DNA from: an uncultured Oscillibacter sp.
GTDB lineage: Bacteria; Bacillota_A; Clostridia; Oscillospirales; Oscillospiraceae
NCBI GenBank assembly: GCA_948902155.1
Contig: CAQVQZ010000041.1
Span: forward strand, 1-13,246
DNA: 13,246 nucleotides
Reading direction: 5' to 3'
The notes under the pieces are model-generated. The model was given only the letters and a program-made list of their open reading frames with translations, was not told the origin of the DNA and did no database searches. Below, one piece after another: positions 4,249-11,582 of this stretch (position 1 is its first letter; each line of letters opens with the position of its first letter). A program made the translations under genes and the position numbers.

Positions 4249-4666
4249 GGTCTGCGCCCCCCTTTTTTCGTTTGAATACCAGCAGTCCGGTCCAGTAATT
4301 GACGACGACCACCACCACCGCCGCCAGCAGCTTGGCGGCCAGCTGGTTCACGGCCAGCAGCTTTACCAGCACCAGGAGCAGCGCCGTCTCCAGGCCCAGG
4401 GAAAACAGCCTGGACAGGGCAAACTCGCCGGCCTCCCTCCAGCCCCGGCGGCCGGTGGAGCGGTACACCCACCTGCCGCTGGCGAGATAGGAGAAGGCCA
4501 CCGCCGCCACCCAGGCAATTCCGTTGCCGGCGATATAGTAAAGACCGGCGATCGCGGTCAGCAGGACATAGACCGCGTAGTTGACAAGCGTCGTCATACC
4601 GCCCACAACGAGATAGGCCAGCTGCTCCGCATGCGCGGTCAGAAGCGCGTGGATTCTTTTGGTCAT
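4220..4666 (-). CDS. gtrA: GtrA-like four-helix membrane protein (putative lipid-linked sugar flippase)
   Basis: This 148-residue protein has four predicted membrane helices (about 15-38, 41-62, 86-104, 109-130). Typical GtrA landmarks are YLVVGGMTTLVNYAVY near the start, SYLASGRWVYRS after helix 2 and a NYWTGLLVFKRK ending after helix 4. The family is believed to help move undecaprenyl-phosphate-sugar made by GtrB across the membrane. The ATG at 4666 is preceded by GGAGGA about 7 bases upstream. It is the first gene of the gtr cassette. Only 16 bases separate its start from the left recombination site of the proposed invertible promoter, so its ribosome site stays in place whichever way the segment faces. 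Confidence 0.92.
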   Translation of the reverse strand: MTKRIHALLTAHAEQLAYLVVGGMTTLVNYAVYVLLTAIAGLYYIAGNGIAWVAAVAFSYLASGRWVYRSTGRRGWREAGEFALSRLFSLGLETALLLVLVKLLAVNQLAAKLLAAVVVVVVNYWTGLLVFKRKKGGADHAFRRDSGL

Positions 4667-4682
4667 GGGCGTCCTCCGGCGC

Positions 4683-4706
4683 TGCAGAAACCTCTACTTT
4701 TTTGCA
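4683..4706 (+). repeat. putative recombinase crossover site, left (gtrA side)
   Basis: Arms TGCAGAAACCT and ACTTTTTTGCA (the latter reads TGCAAAAAAGT on the other strand) flank the central CT at 4694-4695. This is the usual build of a small serine-recombinase site: two imperfect half-sites around an asymmetric 2-base overlap. The flanking bases extend the symmetry slightly (CGCTGCA/TGCAGCG). Confidence 0.62.
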
Positions 4707-4741
4707 GCGGGCGCCCTTTTTGAAATTTTTTCCCGGAGGTA

Positions 4742-4770
4742 TTGAAAAGCGGGGATTCCTGTGTTATTCT
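4742..4770 (+). promoter_or_regulatory. sigma-A-type promoter inside the invertible segment, facing away from gtrA
   Basis: The -35 is TTGAAA (4742-4747), followed by a 17-base spacer and the -10 TATTCT (4765-4770), preceded by TGT as in an extended -10. As drawn it reads rightward, towards and antisense to the 3' end of the recombinase gene. It is the best promoter match in the gap; the minus strand shows only weak candidates. Confidence 0.6.
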
Positions 4771-4798
4771 GTTTTATGCTGAAAAGCAGAAAGTATCT

Positions 4799-4822
4799 TG
4801 CAGAAAAGTAGACTTTTTTGTA
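4799..4822 (-). repeat. putative recombinase crossover site, right (recombinase side)
   Basis: Arms TGCAGAAAAGT and ACTTTTTTGTA (the latter reads TACAAAAAAGT on the other strand) flank the central AG at 4810-4811. Read on the minus strand the centre is CT, matching the left site, so the pair is inverted. The core TCTACTTTT is identical to the left site in that orientation. The site ends 11 bases from the recombinase stop codon. Confidence 0.62.
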
Positions 4823-4833
4823 AAAACGCCCCC

Positions 4834-5445
4834 TTACAAGAACATGGCCTTTTCATAAATCTCCGCCCGGTAACGGAAGGTGGACAGCGGCATCCCGCAC
4901 TCCTTTGCCGCCGCCGTGCCGGTGATCGTCCCGGCCTTCCACCGCTGGTAGGCGCTGTGGTAGTTCTCCGGCAGCGGCCTGGGGGGCCTGCCGAACCGGA
5001 CGCCCCGGGCCTTTGCCGCCGCGATGCCCTCCGCCTGCCGCCGGCGGATGCTGGTGCGCTCGTTCTCCGCCACGAAGGACAGCACTTGGAGCACGATGTC
5101 GCTGAGGAAGGTCCCCATCAGGTCCTTGCCCCGGCGGGTGTCCAGGAGGGGCATGTCCAGCACCACAATGTCAATTTTTTTCTCCTTGGTGAGGGCCCGC
5201 CACTGATTCTGGATCTCCTCATAATTGCGTCCCAGCCGGTCGATGCTCTTGATGTAGAGCAGATCGTCCGGCCTGAGCTTTCGAACCAGCCGCTTGTACT
5301 GGGGGCGGTTGAAGTCCTTGCCGGACTGTTTGTCGGTGAAGATGTTCTCTTCCGGAACGGCCAGCTCCCGCATGGCGATGAGCTGCCGGTCCTCGTTCTG
5401 ATCCCGGGTGCTGACCCGGATATAGCCGTATGTATTTGAAATCAT
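4834..5445 (-). CDS. small serine recombinase (resolvase/invertase family)
   Basis: This 203-residue protein has the size of Hin/Gin-type invertases. The catalytic domain begins with YGYIRVSTRDQNEDRQ, where Ser12 is the expected nucleophile. It includes SIDRLGRNYEEI and, in the long helix, ERTSIRRRQAEGIAAAKARG followed by FGRPP. The last ~45 residues form a helix-turn-helix (TGTAAAKECGMPLSTFRYR) that binds DNA. I chose ATG 5445, because GGGAGG sits 7 bases before it; a TTG at 5451 would be too close. The enzyme breaks and rejoins DNA at 2-base staggered cuts, and the paired palindromic sites just downstream are its likely substrate. It could instead resolve plasmids or transposons, but no transposase is nearby. 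Confidence 0.92.
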   Translation of the reverse strand: MISNTYGYIRVSTRDQNEDRQLIAMRELAVPEENIFTDKQSGKDFNRPQYKRLVRKLRPDDLLYIKSIDRLGRNYEEIQNQWRALTKEKKIDIVVLDMPLLDTRRGKDLMGTFLSDIVLQVLSFVAENERTSIRRRQAEGIAAAKARGVRFGRPPRPLPENYHSAYQRWKAGTITGTAAAKECGMPLSTFRYRAEIYEKAMFL

Positions 5446-5527
5446 GACCAAGCCTCCCTTTGACTTCTTCAGGTGATATCTTACCCGGGAATTTCAGAAG
5501 CTGTACCAATAACCGCAGTACGTGGAT

Positions 5528-5548
5528 TGGCGGGAAAATTTCCCGCCA
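5528..5548. promoter_or_regulatory. 21-bp perfect palindrome upstream of recombinase, possible operator
   Basis: The arms TGGCGGGAAA and TTTCCCGCCA flank a single A. The lack of a loop and of a T tract favours a dimeric regulator site over a terminator. It lies about 80 bases upstream of the recombinase ATG, where it could control that gene. The regulator is unknown. Confidence 0.45.
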
Positions 5549-5593
5549 GGATGTGTGCCGCGGCGATTGGCGCCGCTTCTTACAGCTGTGCAG

Positions 5594-5638
5594 AAAAAGC
5601 ACGCAAACACACCTGCTCCGTGTGTTTGCGTGCTTTTT
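5594..5638 (-). terminator. strong intrinsic terminator downstream of sleC (bidirectional)
   Basis: A perfect 19-bp stem (5594-5612 with 5620-5638, core AGCACGCAAACACAC) with a 7-base loop carries five A on the left and five T on the right, so it has a T tract on both strands. It lies 122 bases past the sleC stop and separates sleC from the recombinase. Confidence 0.9.
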
Positions 5639-5760
5639 AAAATTGCGGGCCCGCCGCCTGGGGAGGCAGCGCTGAAGACCGCCATATCCCGCCGTCCGCC
5701 GCCTCGGCCCGCCGGGCAGCCTTTGGGGCTGACGGCCGGAGGGGGAGCGCCGCAGAGCGG

Positions 5761-7085: not shown

Positions 7086-8642
7086 ATGGAATACATTATC
7101 AAGTATACGGGAGACATCCTCTCTCTGGGTTACCCCACGGAGCTGCTGGACGCCCAGTTTGCCATCATGGAGCTGGAGAATCAAAATCCGGAGCGCCTGC
7201 TGGAACACCGGCAGGTGACCTGCTACGAGCCCGCCCGCCGCCTCAGCGGCCTGATGGACCGGAGCCTGGAGGCGGCCTGCATCCTGCCGGTCCAGCGGGA
7301 GAGCGGGCTGGGGCTGACGGGGCGGGGGGTTTTGATCGGCTTTGTGGATTCCGGCCTGGACCTGACCCACCCGGAATTCCTGGGGGAGGACGGGACCAGC
7401 CGCATCATGGCCCTTTGGGATATGACGGGGCAGGGGACGCCCCCCAGGGGCTTCCTCCACGGCGCGGTCTACACAAGGGAGGAGATCGCCGCGGGGCTTG
7501 CCCCGTCCTCGGACCAGGCCGGGCACGGCACCGCCGTCGCCGCCGTCGCCGCCGGGCGGAGCGGCGCGGCCCCGGAGGCGTCCATCGCCGCGGTGAAGCT
7601 GGCCAGCGCCCGGACCACGGATATCATGCGGGCGGTCAAGTTCCTGCTGGATCAGGCGGAGGAGCGGGGGATGCCCTGTGTGATCAACCTGAGCTACGGC
7701 ACCAACTGCGGGTCCCACCAGGGGCAGACGCTGTTCGAAACCTATATCGACCAGTCCGCCCAGCGGGGCCGGAGCGTGGTGGTCTGCGCCGCCGGGAACG
7801 AGGGCTCCGGGGCCCACCACTTCCGGGGGCGGCTGGAGGAAGGCGGCGTCACCGAGGCGGAGTTCACCGTTTCCACCCGGAGGGAACAGGTGTATCTCTC
7901 CCTCTGGAAGAACTTTGCCGACGAGGCGGCCTTTGAGCTGGTCCTGCCGGGGGGGCAGTCCACCGGGCCGCTGACGGAGGGGGCCCGCTTTCTCCGCTTC
8001 GGCTCCATCCGGGTGACGATGTTTTACGGCGTGCCCACCCATTACAGCGCGTCCCAGGAGGCGCTGTTCCTTCTGGACGCCCCCGCCGGGGAGCTGGACG
8101 GCCTGTGGAAGCTGCGCTGCTTCGGAAAGCGGGTGGCGGACGGGCGCTTTGACGTATGGCTGCCCACCGTCGAGGAGGTCAGCGACCGCACCGCCTTCCT
8201 CCAGCCGGAGCCGGATCTGACGATCACCCTTCCCGCCACGGCCCTCTACCCGATTTCCGTGGGGGGCTTCCGCCCGGAGACGGAGACGGTCAGCCCCTTC
8301 TCGGGCCGGGGGGACCAGGACTGCGCCGGGCGGGTGCTGCTGGACCTGACGGCGCCCGCGGAGTCCGTCCGCTCCGCCAAGCCGGGGGGCGGCTATGATG
8401 CGTTCACCGGCACCAGCATGGCCGCGCCCTTTGTCTCCGGCGCGGCGGCGCTGATGATGGAGTGGGGGATCGTCCAGGGGAACGACCTGTTTCTCTACGG
8501 GCAGCGGGTGAAGGCGTTCCTCTGCAAGGGGGCCTTGCGAAGCCCCTTTCTGGCGTATCCCAATCCCCTGTGGGGGTACGGGCGGCTGAACCTCTGCGGG
8601 ACGATGAACGCGCTGGTCAGCCATTTGGAAAGGGGGCTTTGA
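7086..8642 (+). CDS. CspB-like germination-specific subtilisin-type serine protease
   Basis: This 518-residue S8 peptidase has an N-terminal prodomain-like region (about 1-75). The catalytic residues are all visible: Asp88 in GFVDSGLDLTHPEF, His147 in AGHGTAVA, oxyanion Asn238 in AAGNEGSG, and Ser444 in TGTSMAAPFVSGAAAL. Between them lies the long insert of about 150 residues (about 250-400) characteristic of Csp proteases, which forms a jelly-roll domain in C. perfringens CspB. AGGAGG lies 5 bases before the ATG. It is divergent from sleC and 2 bases from a second csp gene. From the family, it is expected to be packaged in spores and to cleave pro-SleC. Intact catalytic residues make this the better CspB candidate of the two. 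No signal peptide is seen, as usual for Csp proteins. Confidence 0.92.
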   Translation: MEYIIKYTGDILSLGYPTELLDAQFAIMELENQNPERLLEHRQVTCYEPARRLSGLMDRSLEAACILPVQRESGLGLTGRGVLIGFVDSGLDLTHPEFLGEDGTSRIMALWDMTGQGTPPRGFLHGAVYTREEIAAGLAPSSDQAGHGTAVAAVAAGRSGAAPEASIAAVKLASARTTDIMRAVKFLLDQAEERGMPCVINLSYGTNCGSHQGQTLFETYIDQSAQRGRSVVVCAAGNEGSGAHHFRGRLEEGGVTEAEFTVSTRREQVYLSLWKNFADEAAFELVLPGGQSTGPLTEGARFLRFGSIRVTMFYGVPTHYSASQEALFLLDAPAGELDGLWKLRCFGKRVADGRFDVWLPTVEEVSDRTAFLQPEPDLTITLPATALYPISVGGFRPETETVSPFSGRGDQDCAGRVLLDLTAPAESVRSAKPGGGYDAFTGTSMAAPFVSGAAALMMEWGIVQGNDLFLYGQRVKAFLCKGALRSPFLAYPNPLWGYGRLNLCGTMNALVSHLERGL

Positions 8643-8644
8643 AC

Positions 8645-10357
8645 ATGCAGCTTTCGCCGGAGACGCTGGAATTCATCCATGCGCCGGATACGGTGGACTT
8701 CGTCACCCGGGCCACCGACGCTTTTTTCGACTACGCCCGGACCTCTCCGGACGTGGTGGTGGGGCAGACGCTGTCCGGGCGCTACGTCCTGGGCTATGTG
8801 AAGGCGGAAAATTTTCACAAGCTGGAGGAGGCCCTGGGCGCGGCGTTCGTCAGCTCCGTTCCCGTGATCCTGGGCCTGCTGGACCGCCCCGCCCTGGAGG
8901 CGTCGGGCGTGTCCCAGGTTCACGGCCAGCCCTACCTGAACCTGAAGGGCCGGGGCGTGCTGGTGGGGCTGATCGACACCGGCATCGACTACACCCAGCC
9001 GGTTTTCCGCTATGCGGACGGAACCAGCAAGATTCGCTACATCTACGACCAGACCGCGGAGGGGGAACCGCCCTCCGGCTTCCTTCTGGGGCGGGAGTAC
9101 AGCAAGGCGGACATCGACGCGGCCCTGGCCGCCCAGGACCCCTATGCGCTGGTGCCCCAGCGGGACGAGGACGGCCACGGCACCTTCATGGCCTCCGTGG
9201 CCGCTGGGCGGCAGACCGAGGACTTCACCGGCGCCGCCCCGGACGCGGAGATCATCGCCGTGAAGCTGAAAAAGGCCCGGCCCTTCTACCGGGAGAAGTA
9301 CTGCGTCCCGGCGGACCAGGAGAATGCCTATGAGTCCAGCGCCGTGATGCTGGGGGTGGAGTACATCCTCCGCAAGGCCAGGGAGCTGGGCCGCCCCGCG
9401 GCCATCTGCATCGGCCTGGGCACCAACGCCGGGAGCCACGACGGCCACAGTGTCTTTGAGGAGTACCTGGGAGGCGTTTCCATCCAAAAGGGCGTCTGCC
9501 TCTGCGCCGCGGCGGGCAACGAGGCGGAGGCCCGGCACCACGCCGGCGGCATCCTTCAGCCCGGGGAGAAGCCGGGAAAGGTGGACCTGAAGGTGGGGGA
9601 AAACGCCGGAGACGTCTATATTGCCGTTTGGAATACGGTGGCGGACCGCATCTCGCTGTCGGTCCGGTCTCCCTCCGGGGAGCTGGTGGGCCGGGTGCCG
9701 GCCCGGCCGGGGGCCGCCCCCGCCGCCGACGTGAAGCTGGTGCTGGAGGCAGCCAGGGTGCAGATTGAGTATCACTTTCCGGTGGAGGGCAGCGGGGGGC
9801 AGCTGTCCATCATCCGGATCCTGGGGGCGACCCCCGGCGTGTGGACCATTCAGCTCCACGGAGACATTCTTCTGAACGGCAGCTACCAGGTCTGGCTTCC
9901 CATGACGGGCTTTGTGGCCCCCTCGGTGGAGTTCCTGGCGGCCACGCCGGACTACACCGTCACCAGCCCCGCTTCCGCCGTGGGGGTGATCTGCTGCGGG
10001 GCCTATGACAGCGCCGGGAAGAGTCTGTATGCCAAGAGCTCCCGGGGGCCGGCCTGGGACGGGCGGATTCTGCCGGATCTGGTGGCCCCCGGCGTGGGGG
10101 TGGGGGGAATCTATCCCCACGGCCCCGGGCTTATGAGCGGCACCAGCGCGGCGGCCGCGGTGCTGGCGGGAATCTGCGCGCTGCTGCTCCAATGGGGCGT
10201 CCGGGAGGGGAACGACCCGGCCATGGGGACCTATCAGATCCGGGCGTATCTCATCCGGGGCTGCCTCCGGCGGACGGATATGTCCTATCCCAATAACCAG
10301 TGGGGCTATGGGTCCGTGCAGCTGATGCAGACCTTCCACCTGATGCGGGAGCTGTGA
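8645..10357 (+). CDS. second Csp-type subtilisin-like serine protease
   Basis: This 570-residue paralogue of the upstream protease has a longer N-terminal region (about 1-100), with DVVVGQTLSGRYVLGYV resembling the Csp prodomain. Catalytic residues are intact: Asp111 (LIDTGIDYTQPVF), His178 (DEDGHGTFMASVA), Asn292 (AAAGNEAEA) and Ser501. The serine motif is SGTSAAAAVLAG instead of the usual GTSMAAP. The Csp insert between His and Ser is present (about 305-440). I chose ATG 8645, 2 bases after the previous stop and with AAAGGGGG just upstream; the frame stays open further left only inside the preceding gene. In C. difficile CspA and CspC are pseudoproteases that sense germinants, while in C. 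perfringens all Csps keep their triads; this one resembles the latter. It probably acts with SleC in germination. Confidence 0.9.
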   Translation: MQLSPETLEFIHAPDTVDFVTRATDAFFDYARTSPDVVVGQTLSGRYVLGYVKAENFHKLEEALGAAFVSSVPVILGLLDRPALEASGVSQVHGQPYLNLKGRGVLVGLIDTGIDYTQPVFRYADGTSKIRYIYDQTAEGEPPSGFLLGREYSKADIDAALAAQDPYALVPQRDEDGHGTFMASVAAGRQTEDFTGAAPDAEIIAVKLKKARPFYREKYCVPADQENAYESSAVMLGVEYILRKARELGRPAAICIGLGTNAGSHDGHSVFEEYLGGVSIQKGVCLCAAAGNEAEARHHAGGILQPGEKPGKVDLKVGENAGDVYIAVWNTVADRISLSVRSPSGELVGRVPARPGAAPAADVKLVLEAARVQIEYHFPVEGSGGQLSIIRILGATPGVWTIQLHGDILLNGSYQVWLPMTGFVAPSVEFLAATPDYTVTSPASAVGVICCGAYDSAGKSLYAKSSRGPAWDGRILPDLVAPGVGVGGIYPHGPGLMSGTSAAAAVLAGICALLLQWGVREGNDPAMGTYQIRAYLIRGCLRRTDMSYPNNQWGYGSVQLMQTFHLMREL

Positions 10358-10579: not shown

Positions 10580-11494
10580 GTGATTGCGGATCTTCACACC
10601 CACAGCGCGGCCTCCGACGGGCAGTATGCGCCTGCGGAGCTGGTGCGCCTGGCCAGGGAGCGGGGCATTGAGGTGCTGGCGCTGACGGACCACGACACCC
10701 TGGACGGCCTGGAGGAAGCCCTCCGGGCCGGGGAGGCGCTGGGGGTCCGGGTCCTTCCGGGGATCGAACTGGGAGCGGCGGAATACGACCACCTCCATAT
10801 TCTGGGCTACGGCTTTGCCCCCGCCGCCCTGGCTCCGCTGTGCCGGAAGCTGAAGGACGGACGGGACCGGCGGGCCCAGCGCATGATTGACTTCCTCCGG
10901 CAGAAGGGCCTGGAGCTGACGCTGGAGGAGGTGGAGGAAACGGCCGGAGGAACCCCGATCGCCCGGCCCCACGTCGCCCAGGTCCTGGTTCGCCGGGGAT
11001 ACGCGGACAGCGTTCCGGACGCGTTCCGGCGGTATCTGGACACCGGGGAGTTCCGGCGGGAGGTCCGGCGCTTCAAGGCGGACGCCCGGACCTGCTTGGA
11101 AGCCGTCAAGGCCGGGGGCGGCAAGACCTCCCTGGCGCATCCCTGCCAGATCGGCCTGGACCCCCGGGCGCTGGAGGAGCTGGTGGGGAGGCTGGCGGCA
11201 TGGGGCCTGGACGCCCTGGAGTGCCGGTATCCCACGCACACGCCGGAGCAGGAGGCCTTTTACCTGCGCCTGGCGGAGACGTACCGGCTCCATGTCACCG
11301 GGGGGAGCGATTTTCACGGCGAACGGGTGAAGCCCGGGGTCCGGCTGGCGGCCTTGCAGATGGATGTGGACCGGCTTCTGGAAACGGATACCGGCTTCCC
11401 CGGCAGCGGACAGGCGGATATTATAGCAATCCTCAAAAATACTGACAGCAGTTCGACGGATACAGGCGGCACATACCTGCGTCTTCCTCCTTGA
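10580..11494 (+). CDS. PHP-domain metal-dependent phosphoesterase (TrpH/YciV-like)
   Basis: This 304-residue protein has the metal-binding PHP motifs in order: DLHTHSAASDG (4-14), LTDHDT (35-40), PGIEL (60-64), RPHVAQVLVRRG with the family His, LAHPCQ and TGGSDFHGE. This is the cytosolic TrpH/YciV branch; E. coli RNase AM and 3',5'-bisphosphate nucleotidases belong there, so a nuclease or nucleotide phosphatase role is likely. The start is GTG 10580, with GAGAGGAG about 10 bases upstream. The last 24 residues (281-304) are encoded by an inserted miniature repeat element whose left end is at 11422. They are low-complexity (TDSSSTDTGGTY) and replace the natural C-terminus. All metal ligands lie before the insertion, so the enzyme is probably still active. 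Confidence 0.92.
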   Translation: MIADLHTHSAASDGQYAPAELVRLARERGIEVLALTDHDTLDGLEEALRAGEALGVRVLPGIELGAAEYDHLHILGYGFAPAALAPLCRKLKDGRDRRAQRMIDFLRQKGLELTLEEVEETAGGTPIARPHVAQVLVRRGYADSVPDAFRRYLDTGEFRREVRRFKADARTCLEAVKAGGGKTSLAHPCQIGLDPRALEELVGRLAAWGLDALECRYPTHTPEQEAFYLRLAETYRLHVTGGSDFHGERVKPGVRLAALQMDVDRLLETDTGFPGSGQADIIAILKNTDSSSTDTGGTYLRLPP

Positions 11495-11582
11495 CGGGCG
11501 CCAGCCCGCCTGCGTCGTCATCCTTGTTTTGTACCGCCTGTATCCGCTTCCTTTGCTTCCATTATTTCTGAGGATTGCTATA
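11422..11582. mobile_element. 161-bp miniature inverted-repeat element with IS630/Correia-like ends
   Basis: The termini TATAGCAATCCTCA (11422-11435) and TGAGGATTGCTATA (11569-11582) are perfect 14-bp inverted repeats. A second perfect inverted pair lies inside (CGGATACAGGCGG 11457-11469 with 11534-11546), so the whole element folds into one long interrupted hairpin. Two 18-bp direct repeats lie at its centre (11476-11493 and 11509-11526, two mismatches). There is no transposase. The ends start with TA, the target duplicated by IS630/Tc1-type transposases, and recall the Neisseria Correia element (TATAGTGGATTAACAAAAA). It overlaps the PHP gene end and carries that gene's stop codon. Confidence 0.78.

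Follow-up and report, generated by a model that had tools for sequence, protein, structure and literature searches.

A putative invertible promoter between a small serine recombinase gene and a gtr glycosylation cassette in Oscillibacter

In the stretch of DNA analysed here (the window, 13,246 nucleotides from an uncultured Oscillibacter species), a gap of 167 nt separates the stop codon of a small serine recombinase gene from a gtrA-like gene, and the question raised by this locus is whether the gap holds a promoter which the recombinase can turn towards, or away from, the glycosylation genes. A previous sequence-only reading had proposed such a switch from two short sites, a promoter and the order of the genes. 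Comparison with relatives of the recombinase makes it highly probable, at the level of sequence, that the window contains an invertible promoter controlling gtr; inversion in this strain, activity of the promoter and phase-variable glycosylation of an envelope polymer would be the expected consequences.

The gene order claimed earlier (recombinase, switch, gtrA) stands: the recombinase, GtrA, Glycos_transf_2 and GtrII genes are all encoded on the - strand, and the last three overlap (Table 1). These three, a GtrA family protein, a family-2 transferase and a GtrII-type enzyme, form a gtr glycosylation cassette; the transferase also matches the NCBIfam PgfS model with 238 bits, under the model cut-off of 500. 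The recombinase is full length, with a match to the PF00239 catalytic domain and a serine motif, YGYIRVS, whose Ser aligns with that of IGYARVS in Sin. Elsewhere in the window, two subtilase genes (7086-8642 and 8645-10357) resemble those of the germination proteins CspBA and CspC, both scoring under the NCBIfam cut-offs.

Table 1. Features of the switch region and the gtr operon, in window coordinates
Feature	Position	Strand	Description
GtrII-type glucosyltransferase, 534 aa	1742-3346	-	PF14264, 3.9e-60
Family-2 glycosyltransferase, gtrB-like, 310 aa	3316-4248	-	PF00535 (Glycos_transf_2), 2.7e-27
gtrA-like membrane protein (predicted flippase), 148 aa	4220-4666	-	PF04138, 2e-23
Ribosome-binding-site-like GGAGGA	4672-4677	-	5 nt before gtrA, by eye
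gtrA-proximal recombination site (putative)	4683-4706	.	TGCAGAAACCT-CT-ACTTTTTTGCA, 24 bp, centre CT at 4694-4695
Predicted invertible segment	4694-4811	.	116 bp centre to centre; basis: reverse-complementary centres, flipped orthologues in the family
Promoter TTGAAA-17-TATTCT, TG before -10 (predicted)	4742-4770	+	sigma-70 consensus match, faces recombinase
Recombinase-proximal recombination site (putative)	4799-4822	.	TGCAGAAAAGT-AG-ACTTTTTTGTA, 24 bp, centre AG at 4810-4811
Small serine recombinase, 205 aa, presumed invertase	4834-5451	-	PF00239, 6.9e-29; transcribed toward the switch

The two sites, which lie within the 167-nt gap, were read from the sequence exactly where the sequence-only reading had placed them, with the centres it had given, and its arm consensus TGCARAAAAGT is departed from at 3 of the 44 positions of the four arms (counted by eye). 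Both are intact, and they form two dyads in inverted orientation with matching 2-bp centres, as in serine-recombinase invertible promoters. A symmetry score combining palindromy and mutual inversion, with the centres ignored, was 34 for this pair, a value that no dinucleotide shuffle attained, whether of the 460-nt surroundings (1000 shuffles) or of the intergenic gap (1000 shuffles). A second place in the window (tiles starting at 11386 and 11501, among 112 tiles scanned) likewise scores 34, so symmetry alone is not decisive and the relatives have to decide. Within that second area, at about 11422-11582, there is a long imperfect inverted repeat, MITE-like by eye.

The recombinase has many relatives: matches at E up to 0.001 were present in 32 of 60 genomes searched, distant resolvases counted, and at least 584 relatives were confirmed in a scan of GTDB species genomes, the best 80 of which were fetched. 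The 118 tblastn rows, less 8 with under 55% identity or too little downstream sequence, gave 110 relative places, among which L048 is counted twice (split gene) and which, like the 84 loci described below, contain duplicates, e.g. L037 = L074. When a half-site profile leaving the two centre bases unscored was applied to these places (at least 55% identity), 84 of the 110 proved to have a site pair immediately behind the recombinase. The centres are reverse-complementary in 82 of the 84 pairs, their letters varying between loci: GT/AC in 71, AC/GT in 5, AT/AT in 3, CT/AG in 2 (the window and L070) and TT/AA in 1. This agrees with the earlier argument that the opposite polarity of the window's centres predicts inversion; AT/AT centres are self-complementary, so that at those loci the dinucleotide alone cannot choose inversion over deletion.

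Training of the first profile used 52 loci picked partly for matching centres; outside this set the centres match in 31 of 33 pairs, and a centre-blind, leave-one-out profile gave the same 82 of 84. Furthermore, in a motif-free scan the best pairs had complementary centres in 78 of 82 cases at a score of at least 28, and in 80 of 99 at a score of at least 26, a level at which chance pairs enter. The learned motif found no pair in 26 of the 110 recombinase places, five of which (L046, L048, L057, L061 and L064) carry complementary pairs in the motif-free scan; at L095 the second site is masked. The two centre exceptions are L134, with a weak second site, and L082, with four sites in a row (CT, AG, GT, AC), which at L082:1023-1391 make up two complete tandem switches, CT/AG and GT/AC, behind a single recombinase. 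Three viral loci outside the training set have GT/AC, GT/AC and AT/AT centres, pairs being found in 3 of 19 tblastn rows from 18 viral loci, with some of the remaining rows ending at the recombinase. A sugar-transferase gene is preceded at L069:5630-5882 by three successive sites (GT, GT, AC), an arrangement which predicts two inversion sizes and one deletion. An apparent facing pair of switches at L050 reads as a long inverted repeat, may be an assembly artefact and was excluded as evidence.

Inversion between the sites, as predicted for the window, is found among the relatives. L120 and L121 have the same recombinase end, a first gene of equal length (1057 aa), conserved flanks (56/60 and 58/60) and identical outer half-sites (11/11 each), and their inner segments agree at 76/144 positions as assembled and at 110/129 after one is flipped between the centres. 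The segment of L121 is likewise flipped relative to that of L116 (74/145 as assembled, 112/129 flipped), with flanks conserved and outer half-sites identical. L104 and L142 provide a second flipped case (79/170 as assembled, 114/143 flipped), in which the left flank alone is conserved (48/60). On contig L124, moreover, the recombinase and the switch are followed by the recombinase end in reverse complement, matching 41/41 nt to the contig end and joined exactly at the site; such a fold-back may be a path produced by the assembler from reads of both orientations. At 5 of the 84 switch loci the contig ends within 150 nt of the distal site. The comparison of assemblies recommended by the sequence-only reading thus gave flipped versions among family relatives, and no second copy of the window's own locus among the genus genomes, 15 of 86 having some match and the full 301 bases occurring in its own genome only. 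From these alignments the segment appears to invert in nature in the relatives.

The promoter claimed for the segment is the sole sigma-70 consensus match in 4600-5700, where shuffles gave a mean of 0.3, and the claim is refined by its orientation, earlier left unstated: it lies on the + strand and is directed away from gtrA. Judged by consensus match, there is a promoter within the segment, as in other invertible promoters of serine recombinases, and a gtrA-directed match, sought in the same 4600-5700 interval, was not found. Since the promoter is directed at the recombinase, gtr is taken to be OFF in the orientation assembled. The same hexamers recur in the subgroup to which the window belongs, in an alignment of 13 loci picked partly for sharing them, and in two members of this alignment, L068 and L097, the segment carries the promoter in the opposite orientation. 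Over the 84 loci, a promoter score of our own scheme classed 49 as OFF, 13 as ON and 22 as ambiguous.

Close relatives of the gtr cassette are few: with an E-value limit of 1e-100, the family-2 transferase gene is matched in 5 of the 86 genomes of the genus, its own among them. The gtr locus of G022 has a 90% identical recombinase and AT/AT sites, and that of G020 (L191) has GT/AC sites 116 bp apart, beside which a decayed recombinase retains no more than its final stretch; neither site nor recombinase was found in the sequence fetched from G104 and G025. Relatives with decayed sites beside intact recombinase and gtr genes had been named in advance as evidence against a switch; what these genomes hold is gtr and sites with a recombinase remnant in G020, and gtr relatives with neither in the sequence fetched from G104 and G025. 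All three gtr loci with sites face OFF, the promoter pointing towards the recombinase (window and G022; G020 by eye), which could also mean that they are locked. At L191:3092-3329 and L199:641-866 a site pair persists although all that is left of the adjacent, decayed recombinase is its last coding part, which suggests that a switch may survive the loss of its recombinase or be operated in trans.

The genome's three recombinase copies all lie on the window's contig, C29. The second, 78% identical to the window's, heads a GT/AC switch whose sites differ from those of the window in both arms and centre. The third (L033:12281-12912, +) is identical to the window's copy in its 3' half, through the left arm of the site and the CT centre, and diverges at the first base after the centre, a breakpoint which is possibly a crossover scar, the end of a gene conversion or an assembly artefact. 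The alternative that survives best is built on these copies, the recombinase remnants of G020 and L199 and the uniform OFF state of the gtr switches: the locus would be a true switch of the family which this lineage has since locked in the OFF state, or which is inverted solely in trans, by one of the two other recombinases of C29. It is held to be improbable, as the window's recombinase is full length with its serine motif, its two sites are intact and the second copy is associated with sites of other arms and another centre.

Still less likely is a resolvase origin, in which the sites would be the res region of a Sin- or Tn3-like enzyme separating multimers or cointegrates. The nearest solved structure by sequence is indeed Sin (2r0q, 1.3e-30), ahead of the DNA-invertases in the PDB (4m6f, 1.9e-15; 3uj3, 3.2e-15), but a res region has one crossover point plus accessory sites, whereas here the two sites are dyads of a single kind, all but two of the family's pairs have reverse-complementary centres, orthologues carry flipped segments, and what comes next is a promoter and a co-directional gene, with no transposon. 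Finally, the idea that the repeats are only operators or terminator-like hairpins, their symmetry unconnected with recombination, draws on the palindromic nature of each site, on the second window place of equal score and on the second copy's proximal site, which by eye lies inside a longer terminator-like hairpin, but it is hardly credible because it predicts neither reverse-complementary asymmetric centres nor flipped segments.

If the window holds an invertible promoter, the recombinase acting on it, among the three copies of the genome, would presumably be the neighbouring one. This enzyme would bind both palindromic sites and pair them across the 116-bp loop, which at 11 helical turns would leave them facing the same way; cutting at the 2-bp centres, rotation and rejoining would follow. 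As CT and AG are reverse complements, rejoining would invert the segment with no deletion. In the assembled state the promoter would direct transcription into the recombinase gene from its 3' end, leaving gtr off; inversion would bring the -10 to 4735-4740 of the - strand, some 60 nt ahead of gtrA, and the promoter would then drive gtrA, the family-2 transferase and GtrII. A switch working in this way would enable a gut Oscillospiraceae species to toggle an envelope sugar modification in single cells.

The distance between the sites is itself regular. At two-site loci, centre-to-centre spacings fall in bands of 113-118, 125-128, 134-139, 147-148 and 156-157 bp, statistics which cover 77 of the 84 loci (leaving out L134, with its weak second site, L069 and L082, with more than two sites, and the duplicates L074, L101, L143 and L103). 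For the cluster test, which kept L103, 78 loci were grouped by segment similarity into 52 clusters, and their modal spacings gave a circular concentration of 0.77 at 10.7 bp, matched by none of 5000 uniform null sets, a certainty somewhat overstated by the partial relatedness of the clusters by descent. With 10.55 bp taken as one turn, the phase averages zero, which means that the sites are separated by whole helical turns, 11 in the window. The natural reading is that a loop this short can close only if the two dimers bound to the sites are turned to the same side; helical phasing of the distance between paired inversion sites was not found described in the literature searched.

The genes behind the switches were scanned at 73 of 80 loci (the 84 less L074, L101, L143 and L134), six of the other seven ending within 373 nt of the distal site. 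Among the 73 first downstream genes, S-layer homology proteins (8), BspA-type leucine-rich repeat proteins (6), Eco57I-type methylases (6), cytosine methylases (3), SNF2 helicases (3) and TnpB-type proteins (2) were recognised, and the PADLOC type II methyltransferase model had 9 matches. A bacterial sugar transferase (L069), an MBOAT acyltransferase (L139) and a sulfatase-family protein (L037) also occur as cargo. The module is thus general, with gtr as one cargo among others; by their model names, the cargo genes listed would be defence or surface systems. The clearest flipped orthologues, L116, L120 and L121, stand before a large SNF2/PLD-type gene matching DISARM DrmD models, which suggests phase-variable phage defence at these loci; SNF2/DrmD-like defence models recognise the first-gene products of L116 and L121, that of L120 having been scanned within the pooled set only.

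Taken as a whole, the recombinase family could be a portable switch module of gut Clostridia, in which a promoter segment of about 113-157 bp is placed before unrelated cargo (glycan genes, adhesins, restriction and defence-like genes, RNA-guided flagellin repressors), the 2-bp centre serves as an address preventing cross-reaction of neighbouring switches, as at L082, and whole-turn spacing allows a loop below the persistence length of DNA to close, perhaps without a Fis enhancer. This generalisation has an even chance of proving right, and the broader family pattern, with its address-like centres, helical phasing and varied cargo, is in our view of more interest than the window's switch itself. 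From a practical point of view, the sequence rule (dyad arms, reverse-complementary centres and integer-turn spacing, adjoining this recombinase) would yield candidate phase-variable genes from assemblies without reads, and the family comparison opens to experiment the question of how a serine recombinase can bring together two sites separated by only about 115 bp.

Among systems already described, the closest is represented on the window's own contig. At L033:5968-10642 (C29) the second recombinase and its switch are followed by a tldR-like gene of the TnpB family, altered in its RuvC motifs, then by a gene judged by eye to be CsrA-like and finally by one for flagellin; all or part of this order recurs at L045 and L064. 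The TnpB-family protein (394 aa) has VGLKYS and LKRETNAA where TnpB 8h1j has GVDVG and HDRDENAA, which we take to be the catalytic positions. A guide match from the tldR region to the genome's other clear flagellin gene was sought, and no exact 14-mer was found, the best being 15/18. This locus thus carries the tldR-csrA-flagellin cargo of the hin-headed tldR-csrA-fliC loci of Oscillibacter and Flavonifractor plautii, for which the available text of PMC13418256 describes inversions of about 120 bp downstream of hin. The window is like those loci, as far as that text describes them, in bacterial group, in segment length and in the order of recombinase, short promoter-bearing segment and operon; it is unlike them in its gtr cargo and its sigma-70-like promoter, theirs being called FliA-dependent. 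Inversion at these sister loci, as given in the same part of PMC13418256, supports the mechanism for the family and also means that this kind of switch is already known.

As for the combination with gtr, no switch of this type before a gtr cassette was found described in the literature searched. In Bacteroides, the Mpi-type serine recombinase switches the promoters of surface polysaccharide genes, a likeness to the window; the window's recombinase scores 42.5 bits against the Mpi family model (NCBIfam PRK13413), for which the cut-off is 272. The Salmonella Hin / fljBA flagellar switch likewise has a small serine recombinase, which inverts a promoter-bearing segment flanked by two short dyad sites, as is predicted here, but the hin gene lies inside its inverted segment of about 1 kb, whereas the window's recombinase gene lies outside the 116-bp segment. 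Hin differs further in acting with a Fis-bound enhancer, according to the available part of PMC3798978. Invertons also occur, often close to surface genes, in the gut Clostridia of the hCom2 community, and in the portion of PMC11892184 available their strongest invertase link is to a tyrosine-type recombinase group, unlike the serine recombinase of the window. Finally, the gtr operons of Salmonella and its phages share with the window a gtr cassette under phase-variable control; theirs, in the accessible text of PMC2909390, depends on DNA methylation, while that predicted here in a clostridial bacterium would depend on DNA inversion.
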